Shown: positions 5,106 to 59,640 of the stretch, one piece after another
How positions within the stretch are numbered: position 1 is the first letter of the stretch
Layout of the letters: the number at the start of each line of letters is the position of its first letter
Assembly: GCF_037975245.1 (NCBI RefSeq)
Contig: NC_092562.1
Span: 10,455,001 to 10,519,000 of the forward strand
Source: Apostichopus japonicus
Lineage: Eukaryota > Echinodermata > Holothuroidea > Aspidochirotida > Stichopodidae
DNA length: 64,000 nucleotides
Direction: 5' to 3'
Notes under the pieces: model-generated
The model's database searches: none
The model's input: only the letters and a program-made list of their open reading frames with translations
Told to the model about the DNA's origin: nothing
Position numbers and translations under genes: made by a program

Positions 5106-8100
5106 CTGTGGACAAGAAAAATTGAACAAGATGTGTGAATCATGGCCAAGGACAGGATGTAACGATCACCTGAAAATGATATTCCTCTTCCCCCTCCCCT
5201 ACCCTCTCCCCCCTCCCCCAAGTCAAATATGCCAAAGGTTAGTGAAATCTGGATGCATTTGAGATCGTTATAAAGAATGTGACAGTTACGATTAGTACAT
5301 CATATATAAAGTGCATACCTACCATGCAGTGGTGTAACCAGTTTGGGTGGATAAAATGCCAAATACAAATTTTCTTGTTACTTTTTATGACAATTGACCC
5401 TGCACATGGGTAGCAATTGTGTGAATTCCCAATTTGCTTTGGAAAAAAATGTTAAAAAATTCCTGTTTTACCGACGATTAGTACTGTGTGCAACCTTTGA
5501 GTCAAACTGAACAAAATGAAAATGGAAGTCAATGTTCTTTGAGGGATTTTAAACATTTCCAGGTGCTATTTCTCTTAAATTGGGAGACCATAAAAAAAAA
5601 AATTTTTTTTTAAATGGAAGAGCACTTAACTACTGTTTAAAGCCAGATCTTCCATTCGCCTCCGGCCAATGAAATTTGAGTATCGCCAAAATTTGCAATA
5701 GTTGGGTTTAACTGACCTTTCTGTTTAGACGGGGGTGGGGGGTGGGGAAGTGTTGGTGTTTAAATGTTTTCGTAGCAGTTTGGGTGTTGCCCATGAAAAC
5801 TGTTAAATATCAATAAATCAATCAGTCAGTATTTATATAGCGCTGATATCGTGGAACACTTCAAAAGCGAGTTGACAGAGAAATGTTTGAGGCTGTTTCT
5901 AGACACAAGTTCCCATGATACTGTCATTACTGTACAGGTTAATATTGAAACTATGAAGACAGGTAACATTGTTTGTATTAAACAAGTTTACCCACAATAC
6001 CTTGTGTTCCAGGATGACATCGTGCCAGTTTGTCGACGGCAGCTCCCGAATTACCTTCTTGAGAATCTTTTCGGCATTTTCGCTATTCTTTTGAAGTGTT
6101 TTCATCACCTTTGAGCAATCGACCTGAGGAAGCAATTGTTATCATCATGAAAGTAATGTTTCACTAAACAGGCCCTAACTATATAATCTGTCATTTAATG
6201 TTTCAAATAGTGTACACCTACGAAAGCATGTACTGCTACGCTGTCAAACTATATCCTGGGCAGCTCAAATTGTGCAACTGAATGTCAGAATACCCTAACA
6301 AGGTGATCTTAACAAAAAACGTTTAAAATTGAGAGGCAAACGTTTCTGTTCTTCGTAGTCAATGTATCGACACGCCATCACCGAAAGAATGCCTGGGCGA
6401 TTGAATAAGACGGAATAATGATAATAATTTATCATAATTAACAGTTCTAACATAGCGCAACTTACAATAAAGTCTCGCCGTGCTGTACTTAAACCTGGTC
6501 ATTGGTAACTTGTCACACACACACTTCAAAGTGTGCACAATTCAAACAATCTCTCCTGGGACACCACAGTGCACCACAGCCACGTGTTCCCTGGGGGACT
6601 TCCCATAGGGTGCACGCACAAACCGGCGCACGCAACTATATTTACAAGTCACCTCGCAAGTCCCCATTTATACATTTATATCGGTGAAGAGAGGCAATGG
6701 AGATAAAGTGCCTTGACCAAGGACACAACGCAATGCTCTGGCCATGGCTCGAACCTGTAATCCTTAGATCACAAGTCCACTACCTTAACCACTTTACCAC
6801 TACGCCCTCCGGAAGGCCAACGACGTGACTACTAGTACGTCAATTTTTTTTGGTTACAGCTACAAAAGTGCTGCCCCAGCATAGAGTGCATGGATGGATG
6901 TGGGTTAGACAATACATAAAATTATTTTTTAAGGGTTCATATGAGAATAATGGTCTGCATCAGTTGAAGTTAACCACTCAATCTTTGAGTTTTAAAGATG
7001 CATCGGAATAGGCAAAGGTTTGTACGATAAGTTACATTAGTTTATAAATTCAACTTAATATCTTGTAACAACAACAGTATGAAATACTACCAAAACTTGA
7101 AAAGATACACAATTATTCTATTTATGATATTTTGAATGATGATATTTCCTCTTCTTAAACCATCAAACGACTCACATGGTCTTGGGGATCCTCACGCCAG
7201 CTGTCGTAGTCTGTTGCCATAGCGATGGCAGCATAAGGTAGGCCCAGCTCGTTGGCTAGGACCACCTCTGGTACCGTGGTCATGTTGATGACATCGCCTT
7301 GCCACGACCTGAACATGATGCTCTCGGCCCTGGATGAGAACCTTGGTCCTTCGATGGTGACCATTGTGCCCTTCTCGTGACAGGGCAATTTCAACGATTT
7401 GACCGTCTTTATGAGGACCTGGAGAGATCGTTGGATGAAAAAGTTGTCTTATTTTGCTATTGAAAACAAAGTAGTTTTCTAACTTTCAAATCTTGAGAAA
7501 CAATTCGCAAGAATAGTTTCCCCTTTCTGTTTCTACCGATTTTTATAACATAATTCAGGGATGAGGCTGGGGTAAACAAGAAATCACAGACCTTTGCAAA
7601 AATTGCGGTATAGGGTCCAGTTTGCGTATGCTATAGTGTGTTAGGATAATAGTTTTTGTCCCCGAGGGTAGAAAAGAAATCACGGATTTTCCGCGAATTT
7701 GCGGAAAAAGCTCATACCTGATAATTAAATGATGAGGGTTAAAATGATATCATCTTCACAGACAGACCTATTTGTGGGACAATATGCTCTTGCTGTAAGA
7801 GAAAAAAATTACATGAATCAACATGCTGCTGCCCCTATCCCATGTGTTCATGGGGTACAGCACTACACTTTAAACACAAGATGTACTAGGTAACCCTCAA
7901 AAGGTACCAGCATGTCAATTCATACCTCTCTTAGTGGCTGACAGAATGGTTCCCCCATGGCAATATGAGAGACACCCTTCAAGTGTCCCTCCTTCCCATC
8001 GTAGAAGCTGCTCTCCCTCCTGTAAGTCCTGTCGATAAACTGGTCTATAATGACAACGTCTCCGGGCTCTATGTGTTCACGTAGAGATCCGCATGCTGTG

Positions 8101-11100
8101 GTTACTATTAACAGAGTGCAGCCTTCCTTATGTAAGGCAAATATATTAGCTCGGTAGTTGATGAAGGTCGGACTCTGTCCATGCTGTCTGTCGTGACTGT
8201 CAAAATAATTAGTGAGAAAAAGTTGAATGCAGTTCTACTGTATATATATGCCTTTTTGTACCACCACTTAACACAAATATATCCCTTATCAAAGAAGTTC
8301 ATAGCTTCACTAGTTAAAGCAGCATTTTGCATCCTTTTCTATGGTTTTTCTCAACCTCACTAATTCCACGATGCCATAACGACATACATAACTAGCTTAT
8401 CTATTCAATCTTACTTCAAATGGTGGCATAAAATTCGAAAAAATTTACAACTTTCAACTTTGTTTTTCTCTAAGATATTTTCCGTTGGGATCCAAATAAA
8501 CCTTGCCTATAATATGAATATTAAAAAGCTACGAGCGTCATTGGCCAATAGGTAATACAACACCATGATTGATTTGTGTAGATTGTCTATGGCAGTTGTA
8601 CCAGGGAGCTGTTAAGAGTCCAGGATGCTGGTTGTACCAAGTTACCAACTCAACATTTTGAATCTATTTTTAGCAACGTCTCATAACTAAACCTGCATCT
8701 CTGATTGGTTGAATTCAAACTAGTGGGTTGGGGGAACTGTGTGCGATTAATATTTAAATGTGTAATTTGCCAGACGACACTTTTCTCATTATCTGCAAAT
8801 GTCCTTAATTACTCACCAATTAACGCTTTTGGCAAGGAAAAAACTTGGCTTATATCTTAGTTTGCTGTTTTGTTATTGATATGTAAAAAACTTGATGGAC
8901 TTGTCAAAAAAATGGAAAACAGCGACAAAACATAAAATGCTGCTTTAAGATGCATTTCAAATTTAAATAAATAAACCCCAAAAAACTGGAGGATAAACCG
9001 AGGATTTCTGCTACTTTGCTTTCTTTCTCTCGCACAAAATTAATGGTAATACCAATTAAGGAATGTCTTGGAGCCCTACCAATTATTTATGATAGAATTG
9101 AATTTAACTTAAAATAACTTAACTTTTAGCTTTATGTTTACTCGTGAATGACGATTCTGGGAAGGTGCCTTTTTTGTTTATCGTGTTCAACCTAATTTGG
9201 TCGCCTTGGCAACCAAAGTAAATTGCGTGTTCATAGACTTAACTAGAAGTTATGTGTCAATATACAGTAGTTATGCACTTTCAGAGAGTGTCAAGTTTTT
9301 GATTCCATTGTGACTAGTTATTGATACAAGGAAACACATACCTTGTCCTCCCATATCAAGAAACCAAAAAAACTGGTTTTTTACTACAGTAATTTGCCCC
9401 AAAATATGCAATGATATGAATTTACCAACAGGTGATATATTACATACAGACTACAACAACAATGCCAAATTAGGACCGAAAGCATTTATTATAATAACTC
9501 ACTAGACCTACCGTGCTAGAAGTACACAATCAACATCGCCAATCTTCCCACAAATTAATTTGTCAGATGGCTGTAAAGGAAGAGCAAATTCTCTGTTTGC
9601 AAAAACATTTTTCAAAATTTATAGATATTAAACATTCGACAATAGTTAAACTGGCGCAACAGTGCAAGTGATAACAAAGGTTACATGAATTGCCCAAAAA
9701 ATGTCTCAATAAATTAATAATATTGTTCAGAAGGAAACTTCAAAGAAAAAGTCAAAGAAATATGTATTTTTCCCTCCCACATGTCTCATTAATCATAACA
9801 GGTTCATTGGCAGATGCTTAAAGATTGATATGAACTGTAGCATACTAATAGGGGAGGGAGGGGGGGTGCTTTTTACCAACATCTCCAAAAGTTTCAAATT
9901 AGGTTGAGCACTCAGTTTGTATTAAAGTGTTGCAAATCATGATTGCTACTGTTTGGGGCTTGACATGGGTGTTAACTGACATCAAAAATAATTACAAACA
10001 TAATAAAGTTATTAATATCAATGAATTGACAACAGAGTGTCACATGTTAGTTCTGACTCGTTATTTGTCATTTTTTTTTAATCAACACTTGATCTCATTA
10101 GACTTCCGTATTTTAATTCACACAACTTTTCCAGTAAATAAAAACTCTGCAATTTGGAATTGCATTTTACACATGAAATTATTTTCTATTTTAATTATTG
10201 AACAGGAAACTTCTAGCTTTTAATACTGACAAAAACAAAATTTCTCACCTGGCCATATGGAGTGTCAACTGATTTTTCTGACCGATCGGTCAAGATGTCA
10301 GGGTCGTCAAGACCACTTCCTCCGATTATACCGATCTGGGTAATGAAGGCAAAACTACTTTCACCAAACAGCTACTCATTAATCAAACTTAACTTTTACT
10401 AAGTCGTTATAAAAGTGGGCCACATTGATGCAGGACGGGGAGGGGAAGGGAATAGGTGTAAGCAAACAATAGACAATGTTCTTTGAACTGGCATTTCATT
10501 CCAAGGGGCATCTGTAGTTTCTTTGAGGACAATTTCATCAGGTAAGTGATACATATTTTCTGGTGGAGGGTGAAGTTGAGAATGGAGAGGGGAAGCGATA
10601 CTGCCATTGATAGAATGCTTCAATGTGTCTGCAGAAAATGTTAATGTAATTTTAATAATTGTAGGAAATGGAACTTTACAGCTCTTTCATTAATGTTCAA
10701 AGTACAGTCCTGTCCACGCCATCTTACAAAAAGAATAAATGCAAGTATATATACTCTGAAACATATGGTCAGTAGCAGTCTGGGGGAGGGGGGAGGGGGG
10801 CTTAATTTAGGCGCCTACTTGATCAGGGTTTGTAACTAGCGATGAACTACGTCTTACAATGTTATCAGGTCAAATGACAAATCAAGCAGTTTAAATACAC
10901 AACTCCATCATGACTCTTCATTTTATCAAAGGCTTCAAAGCAATGCAACTAGTACTGTACTATGGTGTGATAATGATGTAACAACACAATTTACTAATAC
11001 AAGAATAAATCTAGTTTCAGCATATAGTATACACACATGGGATCACCTATGCCATACCCCAATGTGAGTGTGGCATATTTAATTAAGCCTAACCTTCATC

Positions 11101-20595: not shown

Positions 20596-42363
<21,768 letters not shown>

Positions 42364-43125
42364 CTTTGCACTAGCCAACAAGCCTTCTGCAACTCACGAA
42401 AGAAATTTCGAATACGTGGGCAAAATCCCACTGTGGTTTTTAAATCAAGCGATAGAAATTTAGTTAGAAAATGTGTTAAACATTTTCTAATTGCACCATA
42501 AATCGGTGAAATTGAACACAAAAGACCCTCACGGTAAAGCAAAACGTGAGCTACCGTTTTGAAGTTTTTATGGACAGTAACCATTTCTCTGAGACAAATT
42601 ACGGCTAATAAAATTAGCTAGGAGAATGAGTAAACCGTCGATGATCGAGGGACGTCGTGAAAAGTTGTGTACTGCCTTGTCCAGTGTCTGGGATTTGAAA
42701 GACTGAATGATTTATCAGTGGGTAATAGCACAGTCAAAAGAGAGCGTTTTGCACAATATACGGTATTTGAACACTTTCGATATTGTGTTTCACTGTTTTT
42801 GATATTTCGCCGTCAGATCTACAACAATTAAACAGTACAGTTAAGCAGTGTAAGCCTACAGTACTGTAGTACTAGTTTAGCTACTGTCAGAGTCCGACTG
42901 CAGTTTAGGCTAACTACTACTAGTATATTTGTCTATGTTTATTTCTAATGACGTGTAATTATGCTAACGTATTAACAGGTAGGAAGGTAACCTTTCTACA
43001 TCTGTTGTGAATAAAATGTTGTATTTTAAAAGTTCAGGGACTTCTTGGTAAATCTGGTACTTTTTCAGGGACACTTGTCCCAGGGTTGGCTGATTAAAAT
43101 CACTAATTTAAGTCGCGATTTAAAT
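42364..43125. other. SREK1 upstream region
   Basis: This is the region 5' of the SREK1 start codon and should hold its promoter and 5' untranslated region. I see no TATA box at a fixed distance and no strong motif. A fragment near 43030-43090 ('TCAGGGACTTCTTGG', 'TTTTTCAGGGACACTTG') belongs to the dispersed repeat also seen near 12360 and 18610. Confidence 0.35.
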
Positions 43126-46015: not shown

Positions 46016-48559
46016 ATGCCTGGACAAGTTGCAAAACCCCATTCAAAAAAGGTGATTATCATTTATTACTTTCAAGGTAAACATCTGCTTCTTTTTTGTG
46101 GAAACTTCTCCTTTAAGGTTCATTGTGTTGTTCCTTACATAACATGATAGTTTTAGCTAGTACCACTGAACATGCCTAGACAAACTTGAAAAACCCCATT
46201 CAAAAGTGGTGATTTTCATTTATTACATTTCAAAGTGAACATTGTCAACTTTTAATTTCTTTTTAGAAACTTCTCCTTTAAGGGTCGTTGTGTTGTTCAG
46301 TTTAAGCTAGTACCACTTAACAGTACAATAATGTTATAATGTAAGACATACATCTTATTTTTACATGTTCAGTTGATTACTACTGCAGAGTTATGACATT
46401 TGCCAATCTAGCACTGAACTTCATCCCACAGAAGAACAAATTCTCTATAAAATATGTAATGTCTTGTACAACTTTATTTTATTTTATTTAAATTACATTG
46501 GACCATTTTTTCTCATTTTCTGAACACAACTTATACCTGCTTTTCCTTCTAATAGGGGGCAGCAGTCATCAATGGCAACCACACAGATGTAGTTTGTATA
46601 GGTTATGAAGATAAGACAATGTTAATTGTCTCCCAGTATCAGAAGATGGGATCTATGGTATGTCCAACGTTTCAAATGTTCGATTCTATTCCGACTTTGG
46701 AGGACTTCTTCATATAGTTTAAAGTTTATCTCATATTAAATAATAAAGGTGAATTGCTGTTTTAAAAAAACACTTATGATGGAGACAAGTTACAGTACTA
46801 TGAAGTTAGAATGTTCACAAAGCACTGTATTGAACTAAACAGTCTAGTAGTTACTGGCAAATTAACTTTGTTTATGCTTTTGCTTTACTCTGTCTTGTCC
46901 TGTCCTGTTCTGTCTTTTCTTGTCGTTAAATTGTAGCTTTTCTTTTGTATGTCCTGGGTTGTGCAATGGTACATGGGTAGTATTCAGAAGTTTCAAAATA
47001 CAGAGAACAATGCATTAAAAGTAGTGTCAATATCTCGAAAGAGTGAATCCATTTTGCCTCAATAGCAAATATATACCTGAACTGTCATTAAACGTCACAT
47101 TAGGCCATGCATTTTATGATTGGTCTCCATTATAAGTCAGAGGGCCTGACATTTTTGGCAGGCATTTCTCGTTGATCAAGTTTGGAACATTGCTGAGCCT
47201 ATTGTTCAGAAATTGCTGCACAAATTGAGAACAGTTAACACAATTTTTTGTCTCAAAAATTCTATTTTACATATTGCCAATATAAGAACCCAATATGACA
47301 AATTGGTTTTTTTTTTGTAAGAAGCGAAAATATATGGAAGAACAAAGTCCTTCAGCTGGAATATTCAGTTAAACAACATATAATGTCTGCATTTGATTTA
47401 ATAGTCTGCATTACTAGTAAGAGGGCCTGACATTCCTATTCAGATAGCAGAATCTTCAAGGGCATTGTCCAATGTTCCGAATAACAATTTACCCTTTCTT
47501 CCATTCAAAATGTTTTTCTATACGTTAATATCCATTTGCCTTCGTAGAAGTTCCTGTTAAGATTGAAACAGTAGGCTCTCTAACTTTATAGTTCCCTATA
47601 AACTATAAAGACTGTTTGTAGTAGATAAACAGTATTTTTTAACATATTATTAATATTCTGTCTTAGGTCTACATTACCAAGGATGGAGCACCCATCGATA
47701 ACAAACGTCAAGGTTTTACAACGAATGTTCTGCTTGGAGAGGATAAGGTAAACTATTGATTTATTGGTGTTGATTTAAAACCATCAATATGAGTTTTATG
47801 CTCCCCATATTCTCCAACAAAATAAACAAAGAAATTATATAGCAATAATTGACAAATAAAAGATAGAGATTTTACTGACAAAGAAATGAGAAATAAATCA
47901 TATTTAGCTTTGGAATAAAAGATTGTTCTTTGTTTTAAAGTGCAACTGTGACTGCCGGGTATTTAATGCCCTTGCTCGGTTTGAAATGTGCAAGCGTAAT
48001 GTTACCGTATCATGCTTATTGTTTGGACTGAGAATTTTCACAATATGGAAAATTATATTTAAATGACATTGGTTTACTCAAAATGTAATTTCCACTCTAA
48101 CTGTCCATTCAATTTTTGATTACTTCAGTAAAGTTTTGTTAATATATAGTGAACTCGTTGCAGCATTTTCCACTACCAATATATTGTTATAGTTGGGCAT
48201 ACAGTATATTGTAAAATCTATAATATTCTTGTTCTGCCTGAATGGAATTTTGTTTTTGTTTGTATCACTAGCTTAGCATCGAGGCACTGGTTGCCAATAA
48301 AAATTATTAAGAGCCCCTAACCCTTTCCCCTGTGCTCCCAACCCCCCTCCCTTCCTCCTTTGTGGACAGGTTTAGGAGGTCAAATTTGGTTAATGGTTTC
48401 AAATGTTACCATCTCCAGCCTGTCCTCCATGTGTTTGCAAGAAACCTTGCAGAAGTCGTGTACGCTGGGAAACCAATCGTGATGGGAATTGCCTTGAAAG
48501 ACGACTGTCCATCTGTCATGAAAGCTCTACAAAGTCTGCTTAAAGATTACAAAATGTGA
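46016..48559 (+). CDS. PSMG3: Proteasome assembly chaperone 3 (PSMG3/PAC3)
   Basis: PSMG3 pairs with PSMG4 and helps assemble the alpha ring of the 20S proteasome in the cytosol, then leaves before the particle matures. Exons: 46016-46051, 46556-46657, 47667-47747 and 48419-48559, all joined in phase 0 (119 aa; human 122). Matches to the human protein as I recall it are TDVVC (human TQVVC), L.VSQYQKMGSMV (human LVTQFGKMGTLV), FTTNVLLGEDKPVLHVFARN (human LTTKVLLGQDEPLIHVFAKN) and GIALKD (human AVAVKD). The start codon is the only ATG near the human start and follows a good acceptor. An AATAAA lies at 48575-48580, just after the stop. It converges on PHF24. Intron 1 holds a decayed copy of the exon 1 region. 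Confidence 0.93.
46171..46320 (+). pseudogene. Duplicated, stop-containing copy of PSMG3 exon 1 region
   Basis: Sequence around PSMG3 exon 1 (CATGCC.GACAA, AAACCCCATTCAAAA, GGTGATT, TTCATTTATTAC) recurs 156 bp downstream. The copied ATG (46172-46174) is followed by a stop codon at 46187-46189. The duplication also covers the intron part with GAAACTTCTCCTTTAAGG and AGCTAGTACCACT. Confidence 0.85.
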
Positions 48560-49220: not shown

Positions 49221-52200
49221 TTATAACTTCATAAACATTGGTCCCTGGTTAAGGTGAACTGGTCCTTGGTTAGGTCTAGCGGCTATGATGTACACAGCTT
49301 GCTCCGTGATGAATTCATCCCAAGATATTGTCCTGTGCAGAGAACGCATTGAAAAATTAAAATACATCCTAGAATTGACCAAGAATAATCACACATTGGA
49401 ATAAAAACTTGACAAATATTGAGGACCCATTCAATAAGAACCTGTTTTAGTTACAGTGCAGTCAAGTAGAACATAAAATCACCCTTGTTACACCTCCACC
49501 CCCCACCCCCAGTTCCCCTAATACCCCCATCTGGTCCTCTTACGATTGTCAATTTGTTCTTTCCATATTTTCTCCACCTTTTTGGTCATTAAAGCTTTTC
49601 GTTCTGTTATAAACACTTCTTGTAGGATGTGCATTGAAATTGTACTTCATTGTTGAAAGTGTGCACAGCTGTTAAAAAATCTTGAAGTCCTTTTCAATGT
49701 TTTTTTTCCTTTTTGGTGTTACCCTAAAATGACCTGTATGTACATTGTCTGGGAAAGACAAAAAAGATATTCATGAAATTTTGAAAAACCTTAAAGGATA
49801 TTCTTAGAACTTAACTCAAAATATTCTTTGAGGTGGTTAAATTTTCAAGCATTTCGAATACGTAAGGTTTAGTGAAATGATTAAGGCCGTAATCAACTTT
49901 TGCCATAGGACCAATGGCGGAGCTAGGGGTATTGGTCAGCAGGGGCGAGAATGGTCTGTAGGGGCACTTTCGACACTATCCAAGCGGAGCGCCACCACAC
50001 GTTGGTGCGGAATTTTTGGGTAAAGATAATCCCTAGATCGCTGGGAATGACCCTTTCCGGCACTTGCTAATTTGCAGGTAAACAAAGACTAAATAGCTGA
50101 TAATTAAAGACTGTTGTTAGAGCATTTTGTCAGAAAATTACACCAACAAAATGTGACAAATTTCAATAGGTACAGTAGATGAGAGCGCAATAAAAAAGTC
50201 AATAATCGCAAATAAGTAGAAAGTGATAAAAAGCTGAAAAGGGCAACAGCAGCCCATTTGAGTTCGTCTGGGGGGGCATCCGCCCCCCTGACTGTATGGA
50301 CGCTCCGCCACTGCTTAGGACAGTACATACCCTGAATGGTCGGTGTCAGCGTCCATCAGTATCCCTGTGTTTGTTGTAACGTGAGTTGATAGCGTCATAT
50401 CCAGTTCAGTAAGCTGTCTGGAGAGTTTTCTCCTGGGGGTCGCGGGGAAAAAAACATGAAAGTTCTGAACAAATTCCTAAAAAAAAACCTTGAACAAAAA
50501 AGTTGTGTGTAAACCATGGAATATCCATGCAACTGTAAATTAGTGGTGAACCCTAAAGTTGGTAAAAAATTTTCATCCTTTTCTCTGGGTGTATGTCAGA
50601 AGCCACACTGCCTTGTGCAACAACATTAAATCATACTGGAGATCTCACCAAGTTTCAAACTGATAATAAAAAAAATCTATTTTTTTTTTACAATTTGTGT
50701 ACAAATTGTGAACAGAAAAACGTTTGGGAAATATTTAATCAAATTTGGAAAAACCAATGAAATTTGGCAGAAGCAGGATTCAAACCAGTGATAACATTGG
50801 GGATGTTAGTCATGTGCTGCATCAAGTGAGTTCTAAATTGTTCAAGAGTATCAACAGAATTTGTCAAAACACCTTATTTTATTGATCATAAAAATTGAGA
50901 AAATTGTCATTTGCTCGTGCTCACAACTTTGATTGCTGACAGATATCCCAGCTAGCTTCCGCTTGACAAAGATTCTGAGCATAGCGTACTGTAGCTGTTT
51001 AATAGTACATATCTATTTAGCATGAAGCAGGGAAGGGTGAAAACATGTTATGATGCAAACATGAAGCAGCTTATGGCTAAAAAGTGGCAGCGGCATTATA
51101 ATTTTAATAAAATTTAATGCATGAATTTAACACCCGAATATCATAATAACAATACCTCAATATGAGAAATGTGGGCAAGTGGCCATGCATGTTTTTGAAG
51201 AATAATGAATGCGAGTTACCTAGTTGTTTTCATGAGGGTCAATACCCTTTGAGGTCAGCAGCAGTCATTAGTGTGGAAATCTAAGCAGTTAGCTTCATTG
51301 CAAGAATCATATTACTTTAGAGAGAGAAATTGTACATCAAAGATAGGCCTTTACAGTATATATAAGCTATCTCTACACAGTGTTTGGTGGAGGTCAAAGG
51401 TCACTCAAGAGTGGTCAAAAGCTGTAGACGACAGTAATAGCTGATTAACTGTCTTGTTGTGGAATTTTAGTGAAAACACAATCCTGGTACCAAAAATGTT
51501 GTCAAAATCAATGCGTAAAGCTGTGTTTAAGAACCTTGGCGTTTTTGAAGAAGACGAGTGACCCCTGAATGGTAATCACCATGGATTAGTAATATTTGTA
51601 ATATTAGATATATAGATTAGTAATATTTGTCTCTTTTTCTTGCAGTACCTTTCAGTTGGAGACATTTCGCTAGGGTTGGCTGTGAAGTTACTGAACCAGT
51701 GCTTGTAAGCCCTCCTCGCCTCATAGTCGGTTATCTGGCCGTTACCATCGGTGTCGAAGGCTGTGAAGTTTTGGTGAGCCCGGTGGATTTCTTTGGGCTT
51801 CAGAAGCCTCAGCAGCTTCTTCTGCAGGAAGAATTGAAATCACCAAGAAAAAAACATCGTCACAGAGACAGAAATCCTCCGAACATCAGAAAATAAAGCG
51901 GCGATCTAGTTGAAGCATGTGCTGTGTCACAACACCCAGGTTTCAGGTTTCTCTGTTACCTTCATTCATTCTAAAACTTTGGTTTGAAACATGATGGGTG
52001 ACTCTTAGGAAATATGTAAGCCGTTAGAGCGTGCCGGTATATTTTTCAAAATCCGAGATTTCTTGATAATGAAAGAGCGATGTTCAAGTTGATGTTTCCA
52101 TTTCGAAGTAACATGAACATACAAGGAAAGACATTTGTTACACCAGTAGCAGGATGAGGGTAATCTCTCTGCTGTTGTCCAGGTCTATTAATTAATAAAA

Positions 52201-55200
52201 TTAATTAAATATACCAAATTCCTTGCTCTCAGCCATACTATAAGTGTACAGTTTGCTTCACAAATTTTGGTACTGTAGCTAGTGTCTGTCAAAATGTTGT
52301 TTCCAGCTCAGCCAATCAATTAAATGCAACATTTCTCATTACAGTTGTCCTGACTTTATTGTCCTATGATTATGTGACACATTATTATGATGAAAATCAT
52401 GGGGAGGGGAATTTGAATGAAACAGCATGCCGCTGGTAAAATTGCTGCAACATGCTGACCAGTTGCTAAAGTCCTCTTTAATTGTAAGTGAGCTAAAAAT
52501 CCCTAGTTTTCATAGTGTGGTCGAGACCATTTGTAGAGTTACCAAAAACTTTGGGAAGGGTCCCCAAGAATTTGGGAGTAAAGGGAGATTGCCAACATTG
52601 GAAAAGAAAGAAAAAAGGAAGAAAATCTTGAACAAATCTTACTTCAAAAGTTTCAAAATGTATGAAAAGGGAGGGGAATACCCCTCCCTGTGACCCCTTC
52701 CCCAGGACACAAGGTCTATGATGGTGCAATTGTGGGTCACCTTGCAAGGGAACTACACTCCGGAGCGCAGCATTTATATTGGCTGTCGAATCACACACAC
52801 ACAGAATTGTCTAGTCCTTGATTGAATCCAGTTGGTATACATATTATATACTATATTATAATGTCTATGTTGTTTCCTATTATTTGAAAGACTTGATCTA
52901 TACAGGGAGAGAAAGTTTGCTACATTTTGGTTAAGATTTTTTTTTCTCAGCCCATTAAAATACGAACCCTTGGTTGAGTTGCTAATCTTCTAAGCGCTTC
53001 GTGGTTTAAGAACTCCCACCAAGATATGGACCCGCCGAGGTCGCTGTCCATCGTTTGGAATTTGACTTGTTCTTCCCGTATCTCCTCCTGGGTGATTTCT
53101 CGCCCTTCTCCCTGTTTGATGGCCATCGTACGGTATTTCAGAAACTCGTCCAACGAGATCGTGGCATCTGAGAAGAATCGAGAGAGTTAAGGAGGTAACT
53201 TTGAATTGTATTTATTTAGATCCTCCTGCAAGCAGGAACTCGCGAAGAAGCCATCATTGGCTTATCAAAGCCTCAAGCTGACCGAAGTCGGTCTCTTAGA
53301 TTCATATGTAACGTCCATGATTATGAATTGTCAACAACTCTGTAACTGGACGACATACATTAATCTTGGAGTGACTTGAACTGGATCTTGGAGTGGCTCG
53401 AATTGCATGCCCACTTGTCCAATATGAGTAGAACATGGTTGGGTGGGATGGAAGGGGTGTAGGTGGAGGGGTATGGAAAGGAATGTGAGGGAGAAGGAAG
53501 AGAAAGGGAGGGGGAGGATAAAGATGAATGTCATCGAGACTCCAAACTGGTAAAAGACAACTATCTCTGCCACATTGTTTTTTGGTTCCTTGCTTTAGCA
53601 AAAGGAACCTATGCAGTCAGGTTGGCGTGTGTGTGTGTGTGTGGGTGTGTCTGTGTGTGTGTGCATCTGTGACACTTGCTTGGGTACGCTCTATCTCAAT
53701 AAGGGAAAGTTGGATTGAGGCCAAACTTGGACTATAGATCCGCCATATGGAGAAGGTGTGCCCTATTGTTTTTGGTGCCCACAAAGGTCACCAAAGGTCA
53801 GTTATGGTCCAAAAACCGAAAATATTAAAACTGCAATAACTCCCAGTGCCAATGTGCGACAAGATTGATATTTTGGGACAAGTTGTGAACTGGTTAGGGG
53901 AGCATTTTCAAACTTAACGGTCATGTGATCCGAGGTCACCAAAGGTCAATTAATGATAAAAAACTAGTATTTTTGCGATAACTTGAGAACAAATTGTCCG
54001 TTAGGGTTGGGAGTTGCTTCAATGTTATCCTATTGTTGACCCGCATCTGGGTGACCCTTGACCTCAATTTGACCTCTGGTGACCTTTACATGTTTTTGGG
54101 GATTTTTACAGTTTTGATGCTATTTTCAGATGTCAAAGGTACCTTCTGATCATAAATGTCAATAGGTTGACCCCGTGTGACCTTTATGTGCGAAGTTATA
54201 TGGGGTCACAGTTTTTCGGTCGGAGTTAGGATGGTTGTACAGACTTGTCGTTTTGTTTTTTGGAATCAGGAGATTAAACTTCATCTGAAACCAAGGTCAA
54301 AAGGTCAAAGGTCACATTAGAAAAAATGTGCTTATTTTGGGAGGAAACGAGCAAAAGAGGAAATGTTTGGTTTTGATGCTAGATTTGGATATCAAAGGTA
54401 CCTTCCGATCAAAAATGTCAATTGGTTGACACCCGTGTGACCTTCGTGTGCGAAGTTATACGAGGTCAAAGTTAATTTTCAGACATTTAATGCAACAACT
54501 CCCAGTTCCAAGGTGTGGCATGGTTGATATTTTTGGACAAGTTGCAAATGGTATAGGGGAATATTTTCAAACTTAACGGTCATGTGATCCGAGGTCACCA
54601 AAGGTCAATTAATGTCAAAAAACTAGTATTTTGGGGGTAGAAAATGGGCAAAGAAAAGAAAGTTTGGTTTTGTATAGTTTGATGCTCTAATTTAGGTCTC
54701 ATCAATCAAAAATGTCAATAAGTTGACCCAAGGTGACCTTTGTGTGTTAAGTTATATGAGGTCAAAGTTAATTTTCAGACATTTAGTGTAATAACTCCCA
54801 GTGCCAAGGTGTTACACAGTTGATATTTTGAGACAAGTTGCAAATGGTATAGGGGAATATTTTCAAACTTAACGGTCATGTGATCCGAGGTCACCAAAGG
54901 TCAATTAATGATAAAAAACTAGTATTTTTGCGATAACTTGAGAACAAATTGTCCGTTAGGGTTGGGAGTTGCTTCAATGTAATCCAATTGTCGACCCGCA
55001 TCTGGGTGACCCTTGACCTCAATTTGACCTCTGGTGACCTTTTTAGTGTTTTAGGGATTTTTACAGTTTTGATGCTATTTTCAGATGTCAAAGGTACCTT
55101 CTGATCATAAATGTCAATGGGTTGACCCCCGTGTGACCTTCGTGTGCGAAGTTATATGAGGTCAAAGTTAATTTTCAGACATTTAATGCAATAACTCCCA

Positions 55201-58200
55201 GTTCCGAGGTGTGACAAGGTTGATATTTTTGGAGTAGTTGCAAATGGTATAGGGGAATATTTTCAAACTTAACGGTCATGTGATCCGAGGTCACCAAAGG
55301 TCAATTAATGATAAAAAACTAGTATTTTTGCGACAACTTGAGAACAAATTGTCCGTTAGGGTTGGGAGTTGCTTCAATGTAATCCAATTGTTGACCCGCA
55401 TCTGGGTGACCCTTATGTGCCCCTTGATCCAAAATCCGATCACATTTTGTGATCACAAAAGTGTTGGCTATAGTGTTGGTTACTTTATGGGAACATAAAT
55501 AGTGCCTCTTGATCCAAAATCCGATCACATTTTGTGATCACAAAAGTGTTGGCTATAGTGTTGGTTACTTTATGGGAACATGTAGGACCACAATTACTTG
55601 GACTATTTCAGCCCAATCTTGCTTGATAATATTATGTGTATTGTCATATACCCCAAGCAAGGAACCACAGTGCCCTTGGGCTCTTGTCTTACAATTAAAG
55701 CCAAACGAATGATCACCAGTGTCACAAATACTGGTTGCCAATCTTGTTAAAGTTTTGTGTTATGTGTAAAAAAAAACTCGCAGAAATAAGTTGTGGTACA
55801 AATATATCTGAGGGTATTTTTGTTATGTAGATAATGTTAAGGTGAGAAATAAACTTGTGGAAACGAAGATTATACTTTATTCATTTTCTTTCAAAGATTC
55901 ATTTCGATGTGGGAAGAAATATTGGAACAGGAAATGATAGATGTTAGAGTGTAATAGATCTTGGTGCAAATATTGAATTCAATAAGTATTCCTTGGTAGT
56001 CTCCATTGTTGAACTAATACAAAATGATCAATGTCCATTATTCTTTTCCTGCTCATTTTGACAAGTTTCATATCTATATAGTTGGTAAAAGGATGACTTA
56101 AGGGCCGAAACTAATATTGACATGTTAAAGACTGTTAAAAAAAGTGTTATCGATCGTGGTTTGTTAATTTTATTAGTTTGTGTGAAGTGACCCTTAAAGT
56201 ATATTAGACTCATCGGTCGAAGTGTCTGGACCTGCTACAACAGACTGTTAGTCAGTTCCACAGATACAACACAAAACTCTATAGCAAAACAAGACACTTA
56301 TGGCCTCAAGTCATATATGTTTACAATTCATTACATATATATCAATGAGAAATGGTGTTGAATGTCATTAATGGGTGCTTATCCATTTGAAGATCAAATA
56401 ACATATTTTGGTTGATTTATTAGAATTTTTAAAACCACTGTAGTGAAGCGCCAATATCATCATCACTTTAGCCTTAAAGGACAATTCCAGAGATTTATAT
56501 TGAAAATCAGAATAGCTTATTAGAAACGTTTACTAGCACCATTTTCTTCTTGGAATCTTTAAATACTAAAATACTGCTTGAAGTGATCTTTGAAGGAAGG
56601 AGTTGGGTCAGGATTTTTTTCTTGTAACAAAAAAAAATATCAGTTGTTACTAGCTTCATCTGTTCAATTATTCTTACCTTGGTCTACGTCACACTGATCA
56701 AAAATATCCATTAATTCCTGCATATCCTCTTCATGAAGCATTTGAGCAAGGTTTTCCTAAATTTGAAAAAAAGAAGAAAAAACAGAGATCTGAAAGTAGT
56801 TTTTCCTCACAAATATGACAATGAATATCCTGAATAAAACCAAAAATGATTAATTCAATTCCACTACCACATGCGTAGCTCATGAGATTTAAGGACGTTA
56901 GGACGACTGAATTTGAGACTAGCCAAATACTTTCCAAGGGATGGGAGGAGTGGGGGTCGCGTCGTGCAACATTTATGCATATCATTAGCCCACTTTGATG
57001 AGACAATGGTTTAGCTGCATGCATGCTATGAAGTAACCCTTTAACTGATCATGCGTAGTATCTATCATCTTTCGTTAGGGACTCGTGATAAGCGCTTGAC
57101 GTAACATTATCATAATAAATCAATCAACCAATCATCGTTGATAATTATTTCAATGGAGGATTTTATTCCAAGTTTAGTGTACACCCCCCTCATCCCTCCC
57201 CTCCCCAACCATGCCCTTCCTCTCCTATCGATCTCGTTTATTTCTTACTATTCATACTTACGCATTCGTGACAGGACCATCCGATATTGGTATGAGCTCT
57301 GTGAAAGATCTCGATTTCTTCATCTCCATTAAGATGGCCTCTCTTTTTAAGACAATGCTCGTGGTAAACTTTCTCACAGATTCGGCAGGGGTGAAGAGAT
57401 TCCTTCTTGAACATATTACACACAGCGCAATCTGTGTCGTTAGATATCTGGCATAGGGAAAAAAAACAATTGATCAATAAGAATGGTATCCTACACCCAG
57501 GGGCACCGTAGTGGGGGGGGGCAGGGAACGTTCCCGCATTGTTTCAAAAGACATTCAAAGCTCCAATTTTCATGAATTAAAAGTCTCTATCACCCTTTAT
57601 ATAGTGCCATTTTGATGAAAAACATTCAATTGATGGAATTCTGATTTTCGTAACATTCTTAAGACAAAAGAAAAGAAGTCTTCAAACAGATTCTCCGGTG
57701 ATATAATTGACATGTTCCCGGGGCCCGACCAGGCCTTCCACACCCCTGGATGATAAAAACGTCAGCTGCGTCGCAAGAAAAGGTCCGAACGGTACGAAGG
57801 AGAAACACAGCTGGGATGTGCTGTCGTGTTCGTTTGTACGTGGGGAGGGGGAAGAGGAGGGCGTGGGAGTAGCTGTTTCACCGAAAACTACTAAGAACAA
57901 ATATACATGGTTGTTTGTAAGGCCCATGTAGACTGTAACGGACATGTCCCCTCCACCCCCCCCCCCCTCTCGACCACCTTGGAAGCTTTTTGTACTTCAC
58001 AGTAACGCTTCCCGCGGGCTTGACTCTGTTCGGTAGATATAGCTGTATGGTATATATGAGTTCGAAAAGTACTAAGGTCCTCGAAGCGAATAACCATCTT
58101 ATTAATAAAGCAGAACTCAATCTTACACTTTTAGCATTAATGAAGTCGTGGATAAATATATTAACGATCTATAGATCTCATTGTGCAAGTTGAAAGGGAC

Positions 58201-59640
58201 ATTTCAATCCAGTGGCTTGTTTAACAATAGAAATAGAATTAGATTTTGAATTAGATCTATATGTGCCTGATGTTGCTCGATATACCCTGCCGCTCAGTTA
58301 TATTGATTTCATGGGTCTCAATTTGAACAATAGGGAGCAACGAACACACAAAGGTGTAATTATTGACGAGTGGCTTAGACCTGTCAAGCATGGAACGACA
58401 TAATGCATTGTTTATAGTTTCATATGGTTGATGGGTAAAGAACACTCTATGAATGTGAGGTATACGGGCTCATTAGTCAACATCGATCACCAGTAATCCA
58501 GTTAAAGCCTTCAGAATATAGACCGGCCCTAACTGTATAGTAGGCCCAGTGTTGGGTATATACAGTCAACGATAGGCTATCGACTATAGGGGCCCCGCAG
58601 AATGTTATAAGGGTCTAGGGCGTACGTCCTGCAGATAAACACGAGGCTTCGCCTATTGGGCAGACAGATTCACCCTCGTCACGGTATCAGTTCTATATGT
58701 ATCAATAGAGTGTATAGGCCATACATTATGACGTCATATGTTTGAAACATGTCACTTTATGATGTTTGGGAAGATTAAGTCTTTACACGAGCTCCTCGAA
58801 AGGTCATCGGGATTGTCACCAAATATGCTAGAAATTTAAAATTATGGTCACTAATGTTCAGATTTCAAGAAGCATTTGAAAGCCATCCTGAAACCATTGT
58901 GCCTCACTGATACAACATATCTGATTGGACCTCCTCAATGTTTTGGGAATAATTCTGAGAGTCAGCATCTCGTGAAAAATAAACATGAAACCCTTTAGCA
59001 ATTTTCAGCTCCTTTTTTTCGGAGAGTGTGGGAAAAAGAGGGGGAGGGGGCAACACTTAATAAAGCCTGCAATCCTTACCCTTGTTTCCCAATCTATGGG
59101 TAACTCATATGGCACCATAAACTCCTCCTCGTCTTCTGTCTCCGTCTTATTCACCCCACTTGTAAAGTCGTTACGATAAAGTCCTTCATCTCTAACGTTG
59201 ACATTACTTCTCTCCACTGTTTGGAATCCACCCAATGCCGAGTCGACCACCACTAACTCAGTGTTTGGTAGTTCACTCTCTGTAGTATCACCACGTTTTA
59301 AAGCTTCCCAAGCAGAAGAAGTGTCTTTGAACATCAACGCCCTCGGTGAATTTTGCACTTCACTTCTATATCCTGTATCCACGTTAGAGTCATTTTCTTC
59401 GACATTACTCCTCGGCGAAATTCGCGCACTTGTGCGCCTATTGTCTTGTGCAGAATTGATTTCTTGATGTTGATTGGTCAATAGACTATTACGCATGCCG
59501 GTAGCTGTTCCCTGATTGGTCTGAAACTTCTTAATGTTGGCCGGAGAGTTTGTGTTCACTTTATTTATTTGAATCACTCCTCTCGCGATTTTGCGGAAGT
59601 TGTCAGTTGGTTCCTTTTTCTTTCCTAAAGTAACTCCCAT
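49221..59640 (-). CDS. PHF24: PHD finger protein 24-like (PHF24/GINIP), PHD plus four EF-hand-like loops
   Basis: Vertebrate PHF24 (GINIP/KIAA1045) is a neuronal protein reported to bind inhibitory G-protein alpha subunits and tune GABA-B signalling. Exons: 59080-59640, 57262-57447, 56678-56756, 52968-53167, 51649-51821, 50331-50432 and 49221-49332 (1413 nt, 470 aa; human about 400). N-terminus MGVTLGKKKE is a likely myristoylation site, as in human MGVLMSKR. A low-complexity region follows to residue 187, including AWEALKRG (human AAWERLRDG). The PHD finger at 188-249 has C194, C197, C208, C211, H216, C219, C246 and C249. EF-like loops are at 272-283, 316-327, 365-376 and 429-440. The C-terminus VYIIAARPN..PVHL matches human LYILAARPN..AIHL. 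The final donor of exon 4 (AGG|GTTCGT) is non-consensus but required by phase. Identification is firm. Confidence 0.93.
49912..50315 (+). mobile_element. MITE-like repeat, TGGCGGAGCT ends, copy 2
   Basis: The left end CAATGGCGGAGC and right end GCTCCGCCACTGCT are inverted, and TAGGAC lies on both sides (49906-49911 and 50316-50321), a possible 6-bp target duplication. The body matches 2430-2794. On the minus strand it starts 15 nt after the donor of PHF24 exon 6. Confidence 0.72.
50331..50432 (-). other. PHF24: PHF24 exon 6: linker and start of EF loop 4
   Basis: Entering in phase 2, it codes RRKLSRQLTELD and then HVTTNTGILMDADTDHSG, ending in phase 2. It supplies D429, D431 and S433 of the fourth loop; exon 7 adds G434-T-I-S-W-D-E440. 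Acceptor CGACCCCCAG, donor CAGG|GTATGT. Confidence 0.88.
51649..51821 (-). other. PHF24: PHF24 exon 5: EF loop 3
   Basis: Codes KKLLRLLKPKEIHRAHQNF, then FDTDGNGQITDYEARRAYKH and SNFTANPSEMSPTE. The loop DTDGNGQITDYE has every canonical calcium-ligand position filled (D, D, N, Q carbonyl, T, E). The human counterpart ARGSGSTVSEAE is degenerate as I recall it. Acceptor CTTCCTGCAG; donor AAAG|GTACTG. Confidence 0.93.
52968..53167 (-). other. PHF24: PHF24 exon 4: EF loops 1 (second half) and 2
   Basis: Completes loop 1 (DVDQDATISLDE, residues 272-283) and holds loop 2 (DSDLGGSISWWE, 316-327). Between them lies LKYRTMAIKQGEGREITQEE, matching human [20 protein letters not shown]. The donor AGG|GTTCGT is weak; no other donor keeps phase 0 with exon 5. 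Confidence 0.9.
53580..55690. repeat. 2.1-kb composite repeat with tandem AGGTCA-rich units
   Basis: The left border has GGTTCCTTGCTTTAGC and the right border AAGCAAGGAACC, an inverted pair, with a (GT)n tract just inside the left. The interior repeats blocks such as GGTCATGTGATCCGAGGTCA four times (about 53918, 54577, 54874, 55274), GTTGGGAGTTGCTTCAATGT three times and GACCTT.GTGTGCGAAGTTAT several times. The unit includes AGGTCACCAAAGGTCA, a DR4 arrangement of AGGTCA half-sites. It lies in PHF24 intron 3. Probably a transposon-derived repeat; the class is unknown. Confidence 0.8.
55428..55581 (+). repeat. 80-bp direct duplication with a palindrome
   Basis: A segment starting CTTGATCCAAAATCCGATC at about 55425 repeats from about 55507 through TTACTTTATGGGAACAT. 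Each copy has the 16-bp perfect palindrome TTTTGTGATCACAAAA. It forms the right part of the composite repeat. Confidence 0.88.
56678..56756 (-). other. PHF24: PHF24 exon 3: helix and start of EF loop 1
   Basis: Codes ENLAQMLHEEDMQELMDIFD then QCDVDQ, ending in phase 1. It aligns with human [20 protein letters not shown]. It supplies the incoming helix and D272, D274 and, with exon 4, D276 of loop 1. Acceptor CAAATTTAG; donor CAAG|GTAAGA. Confidence 0.9.
57262..57447 (-). other. PHF24: PHF24 exon 2: PHD finger
   Basis: Exactly 62 codons in phase 0 at both ends, covering the whole zinc-binding finger: CAVC, CRICEKVYHEHC, then GWSCHEC. The C4-H-C3 ligand order is complete. Human has CDVC...CRVCTRVFHDGC...GWSCHYC. 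Acceptor TATGCCAG; donor TGC|GTAAGT. Confidence 0.95.
59080..59640 (-). other. PHF24: PHF24 exon 1: N-terminal region
   Basis: 187 codons from MGVTLGKKKE to DWETR, ending with a strong donor AGG|GTAAGG. Mostly polar, low-complexity sequence (many N, S, T, E). It is longer than the human N-terminal region, which accounts for most of the size difference. The frame stays open past the donor by chance. Confidence 0.9.

Follow-up and report, generated by a model that had tools for sequence, protein, structure and literature searches.

A PHF24/GINIP homologue with mostly intact EF-hand loops in the sea cucumber Apostichopus japonicus

The gene and its family

The stretch of Apostichopus japonicus DNA analyzed here (the window; 64,000 nucleotides of contig NC_092562.1, positions 10,455,001 to 10,519,000) encodes, on its minus strand, a homologue of PHF24 (also GINIP or KIAA1045) that combines a zinc finger with four EF-hand loops. 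The gene consists of seven coding exons (59640..49221); all six introns are bounded by GT and AG, and the reading frame is open throughout. The spliced coding sequence of 1413 nucleotides (nt) is translated into a protein of 470 amino acids (aa) and terminates with a TAA stop codon in the last exon, ending at 49221. The original prediction had placed the homologue at 49221..59640, which is exactly the extent of the spliced coding sequence. The splice donors match 6 to 8 of the 9 consensus positions, with the lowest value (6) in exons 2, 4, and 5; for the donor of exon 4, GTTCGT, no better GT is present from 40 bases upstream to 60 bases downstream. The coding exons are as follows:

Coding exon 1: 59080..59640, minus strand; start codon, MGVTLGKKK N-terminus and a long linker
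Coding exon 2: 57262..57447, minus strand; KIAA1045-type zinc finger (zf-RING_15), aa 188-249 (from splicing, Pfam and PDB)
Coding exon 3: 56678..56756, minus strand; incoming helix and residues 1-4 of EF loop 1
Coding exon 4: 52968..53167, minus strand; remainder of EF loop 1 and the entire EF2 (from splicing and the AlphaFold fragment)
Coding exon 5: 51649..51821, minus strand; EF3 (from splicing and the AlphaFold fragment)
Coding exon 6: 50331..50432, minus strand; linker, incoming stretch and start of EF loop 4
Coding exon 7: 49221..49332, minus strand; remainder of EF loop 4, C-terminal tail (YIIAARPN...) and stop codon

Intron 3 harbors diverged direct repeats of 263-300 nt (53832-55581) that form two families of three copies each and are 76-93% identical to the reference copy, together with two almost identical 80-nt copies that start at 55417 and 55502.

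The zinc finger matches the 'KIAA1045 RING finger' family of Pfam (zf-RING_15, PF16744) at aa 189-259 (78.7 bits; cut-off 30.8), whereas the generic PHD model scores 12 bits, half of its cut-off of 24. In PDB, the sequence best matches 1wil, listed as KIAA1045 protein (E = 9.8e-21), followed by 5xht, listed as PHD finger protein 24 (E = 3.8e-17), and the Cys/His ligands of the zinc finger are identical to those of 1wil in the alignment. The human PHF24 sequence used here for comparison is a provisional one, which matches a database record, the chain 1wil, over its PHD part; blastp against this provisional sequence produces one alignment (aa 177-462; 33.6% identity over 289 columns; E = 2.4e-55), which crosses the EF-hand region collinearly up to the C-terminal AARPN motif. 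The predicted homology to PHF24/GINIP is borne out by all these matches and is strong, and the gene is likely the orthologue.

The features shared with mammalian PHF24, as judged from the provisional human sequence, include the PF16744 finger, the Met-Gly start, the EF-like C-terminal half and the AARPN tail, all in collinear order. The sea cucumber protein is longer (470 aa compared to 400 aa in the provisional human sequence), the extra sequence being located mainly in the N-terminal linker. In the zinc-finger loop, Trp139 of the provisional human sequence is replaced by Phe, and the ESL motif that follows is conserved; the first loop of the GINIP zinc finger is presumably a contact with Gαi, in which Trp139 is assumed to be important. 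GVTLGKKK comes directly after the initiator Met, and this Met-Gly N-terminus fits the myristoylation pattern PS00008, which is a permissive one, in agreement, as a pattern match only, with the myristoylation-type N-terminus proposed originally.

PHF24 is known as an animal family. Searches of viral contigs with the whole protein (8 pattern matches) and of prokaryotic genome contigs with aa 188-388 (12 pattern matches) retrieved no relatives; they are uninformative on animals because the collections are viral and prokaryotic. Three NCBIfam families that matched far under their cut-offs were rejected as relatives, namely, a bacterial calcium-binding effector family (36.9 bits against 120), lanmodulin (20.3 against 135) and transaldolase (15.3 against 550).

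The EF-hand loops

The four EF-hand loops start at aa 272, 316, 365, and 429, and each contains D1, D3, I8, and E12. The original prediction of four loops spread over exons 3-7, with the key positions in place, holds for all of them:

EF loop 1, DVDQDATISLDE: from aa 272, minus strand, split between exons 3 and 4
EF loop 1, exon 3 part: 56678..56690, minus strand; codons of DVDQ plus the first base of the D5 codon
EF loop 1, exon 4 part: 53145..53167, minus strand; the rest of D5, then ATISLDE
EF loop 2, DSDLGGSISWWE: from aa 316, 53013..53048, minus strand; exon 4
EF loop 3, DTDGNGQITDYE: from aa 365, 51720..51755, minus strand; exon 5
EF loop 4, DTDHSGTISWDE: from aa 429, minus strand, split between exons 6 and 7
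EF loop 4, exon 6 part: 50331..50347, minus strand; DTDHS and two bases of G6
EF loop 4, exon 7 part: 49314..49332, minus strand; the last base of G6, then TISWDE

The core loop pattern, D-x-[DNS]-x4-[LIVM]-x3-[DE], is present four times in the protein, and four or more occurrences were obtained in 4 of 100,000 composition shuffles of its sequence (82846, 15691, 1384, 75, 3, and 1 shuffles contained 0, 1, 2, 3, 4, and 5 core loops, respectively). Loops 3 and 4 possess full sets of side-chain ligands. The whole protein scores over the Pfam cut-offs for EF-hand_7 (63.7 bits, E = 2.1e-17; cut-off 30 bits) and EF-hand_1 (49 bits, E = 2.5e-13; cut-off 25.4 bits). When the pairs are compared with EF-hand_7, EF1-EF2 yields 40.3 bits and EF3-EF4 30.4 bits, the latter barely over the cut-off. 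Structure prediction was performed with AlphaFold, without an alignment, on the single-exon fragments of exons 4 and 5, which cover hands 1-3. The first codon of the exon 4 fragment takes in the genomic acceptor base and still specifies Asp, as it does after splicing. The predicted helix-loop-helix is in register in hands 1, 2, and 3, with the exiting helix beginning at loop position 10. The mean predicted local distance difference test score (pLDDT) of the best model is 83.8 for exon 4, where hand 1 is devoid of its incoming helix, and 67.7, that is, low confidence, for exon 5.

Taken one by one, the four loops differ in quality. The strict pattern PS00018 is matched by one of the four loops (loop 4), and the other three each miss it at one position (A6 in loop 1, L4 in loop 2, and A13 in loop 3). 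Loop 2 is the weakest, with Leu4 and, in addition, Gly at ligand position 5. Isolated EF1, EF3, and EF4 score 23.3, 18.8, and 21.2 bits against EF-hand_1, each under the cut-off, and isolated EF2 matches no Pfam family at E<=1. Many calcium-binding EF-hands deviate from strict PS00018. The scoring of individual loops against the EF-hand profile, which the original prediction had proposed as a check, gives matches for EF1, EF3, and EF4, all of them below the cut-off, and none for EF2; the description of the loops as near-canonical suits loops 1, 3, and 4 but is generous for loop 2, which combines Leu4 and Gly5 with the lack of a Pfam match of its own. Altogether, the gene probably encodes a PHF24/GINIP orthologue whose four C-terminal EF-hands form two pairs, and Ca2+ binding is predicted for at least two of these hands (EF3 and EF4, and probably EF1).

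Other genes in the window

Two exons of a phosphorylase-superfamily gene are located at 7158-8234 on the minus strand (PF01048; E = 5.7e-18 and 3.2e-14; two of the 10 open reading frames (ORFs) in the same search matched any Pfam family); the sequence resembles that of methylthioadenosine phosphorylase (MTAP). The region 20592-42393, also on the minus strand, contains RRM-like exons at 35580-35789 (RRM_1; E = 2.4e-11) and 42244-42393 (RRM_1; E = 0.0005; 20.3 bits, just below the cut-off of 20.7), along with arginine- and serine-rich (RS-rich) ORFs at 27250-27537 and 22214-22522, with no Pfam match in those searched. The RRM-like exons and the RS-rich ORFs perhaps belong to one splicing factor of the serine/arginine-rich (SR) type, such as SREK1; a PDB search with one exon was of no help. 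At 40784-41036, overlapping ORFs on both strands consist of a repeated EETGRN/KKP-like unit and, by eye, appear to represent a short repeat array. On the plus strand, at 48311-48556, an ORF that matches proteasome assembly chaperone 3 (PF10178; E = 1.2e-05; 25.9 bits; cut-off 21.2) runs toward the 3' end of PHF24, in convergent orientation, and is perhaps an exon of PSMG3. Scans of the window with Rfam, at the gathering threshold, and for tRNAs found nothing.

Possible calcium control of a Gαi adaptor

In the provisional human PHF24 sequence, the EF1-EF2 pair scores 22.4 bits against EF-hand_7 (40.3 in the sea cucumber protein), EF3-EF4 gives no match (30.4 in the sea cucumber protein), and the EF region as a whole reaches 17.9 bits. 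Loops 1, 3, and 4 of this human sequence are without most of the ligands, and loop 2 is partial, whereas D1, D3, I8, and E12 are kept in the sea cucumber protein. The human loops look degenerate, with a trace of the fold left, because the provisional human EF region scores far lower. The degeneration of the human loops claimed in the original prediction is apparent at the level of the pairs but incomplete in loop 2, DPEHRGHIEWPD, which retains D1, E3, G6, I8, E9, and D12 in the provisional sequence; the retention of these ligands softens the proposed loss of calcium binding to a loss of most loop ligands. It is plausible, from the comparison of the two sequences, that vertebrates lost calcium binding, and loss in the vertebrate line is the simplest account because the provisional human loops are degenerate at the same places.

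The original prediction made no link to GINIP, whose reported binding of GTP-bound Gαi points to the likely mechanism. Published work reports that mammalian GINIP engages active Gαi at the α3/switch II groove, hindering its interaction with adenylyl cyclase (PMC10996109); that it is a binder of Gi in the GTP-bound (guanosine triphosphate-bound) form (PMC12796736, PMC12336858); that it is also recovered with Go-GTPγS from brain, contrary to earlier reports of no apparent Go binding (PMC12796736); and that it biases G protein-coupled receptor responses from Gαi toward Gβγ (PMC12189920). The sea cucumber protein is likely seated at the plasma membrane via a putative myristoyl group and nearby lysines, with the zinc finger binding GTP-loaded Gαi as it does in mammalian GINIP, and the neighboring C-terminal EF module, judging by its loops, probably binds calcium. 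Calcium on the EF module might then alter the presentation of the zinc finger to Gαi, which is the least certain step and a tentative one. Mammals would have retained this EF scaffold, although most of its loops had become unsuited to calcium binding. In a further scenario, which is possible although rather doubtful, the early GINIP served activated Gαi as an adaptor under calcium control, in which EF-bound calcium switched the zinc-finger loop on or off, and vertebrates dropped the control but kept the scaffold.

The strongest competitor of the reading of the sea cucumber protein as a membrane-bound Gαi binder with a calcium-binding EF module opposes only the gating step and holds that the EF-hands bind Ca2+ or Mg2+ solely for the stability of the fold, the protein binding Gαi constitutively, like its mammalian counterpart, and sensing nothing. 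The probability of this alternative is substantial, if somewhat short of even: loop 2 is poor, position 6 of loop 1 is Ala, and the same architecture with weaker loops is seen in the provisional human sequence, so that Gαi could well be bound independently of calcium. Stability alone is less readily reconciled with the full ligand sets of loops 3 and 4 and with the EF3-EF4 pair that is just over the EF-hand_7 cut-off, an appearance that is common among regulatory EF pairs. Databases label the zinc finger PHD or RING, which could be taken to indicate a nuclear histone reader endowed with EF-hands rather than a G-protein regulator at the membrane, but this is very unlikely considering the subthreshold score of the generic PHD model next to the high score of the KIAA1045-specific one, the Met-Gly N-terminus, and the reported action of the mammalian orthologue on Gαi (PMC12189920, PMC12336858, PMC10996109).

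The sequences compared are this protein and the provisional human PHF24, and the intact loops might be lineage-specific, the common ancestor having had degenerate loops already, in which case nothing was lost in vertebrates. This course of events is very unlikely: as many as four loops would have had to regain D1, D3, I8, and E12, each at the matching place, and degenerate loops within a recognizable EF fold normally descend from binding ones. A phf24 gene is reported from the transcriptome of a pygmy squid (PMC11202396), and therefore outgroups exist. Finally, the gene model itself could be wrong, with some exons coming from a pseudogene or a neighboring gene, considering that it was built from genomic sequence and that three donors, including that of exon 4, match only 6 of 9 positions. 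Such an error is extremely improbable because the seven exons are ordered on one strand and joined in frame at GT-AG sites, and the homology to PHF24 is collinear as far as the C-terminus.

If the calcium-gated adaptor is real, calcium entry would decide between Gαi and Gβγ signaling by Gi-coupled receptors. In mammals, GINIP has been linked to neuropathic pain and to seizure susceptibility (PMC12189920 for the latter). In the open-licence literature searched, which does not include the main GINIP papers, no description of PHF24/GINIP as a calcium or EF-hand protein was found; where calcium or EF-hand terms occur in papers that mention PHF24 or GINIP, they refer to EFHC1, Hpcal1, CAB39L, Necab2, the partners of Iqck, EFCAB8, and EFCAB14. 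A PHF24/GINIP orthologue with mostly intact EF-hands would account for the odd EF-like half seen in mammals and makes it possible to test directly whether the GINIP switch was once under calcium control.

Among known systems, the combination of a myristoylation-type N-terminus and four EF-hands is shared with the neuronal calcium sensors (recoverin, NCS-1, and GCAP); these have no zinc finger and form a separate family, so that the likeness to the PHF24 homologue is one of architecture only. Among the best 60 of 225 PDB matches, the two PHF24 chains are followed by calmodulins and calmodulin fusions (E from 9.5e-05 to 0.0039). The spacing of loop starts within the pairs, 44 and 64 residues, is wider than in calmodulin and, unlike there, the EF module is fused to a zinc finger.
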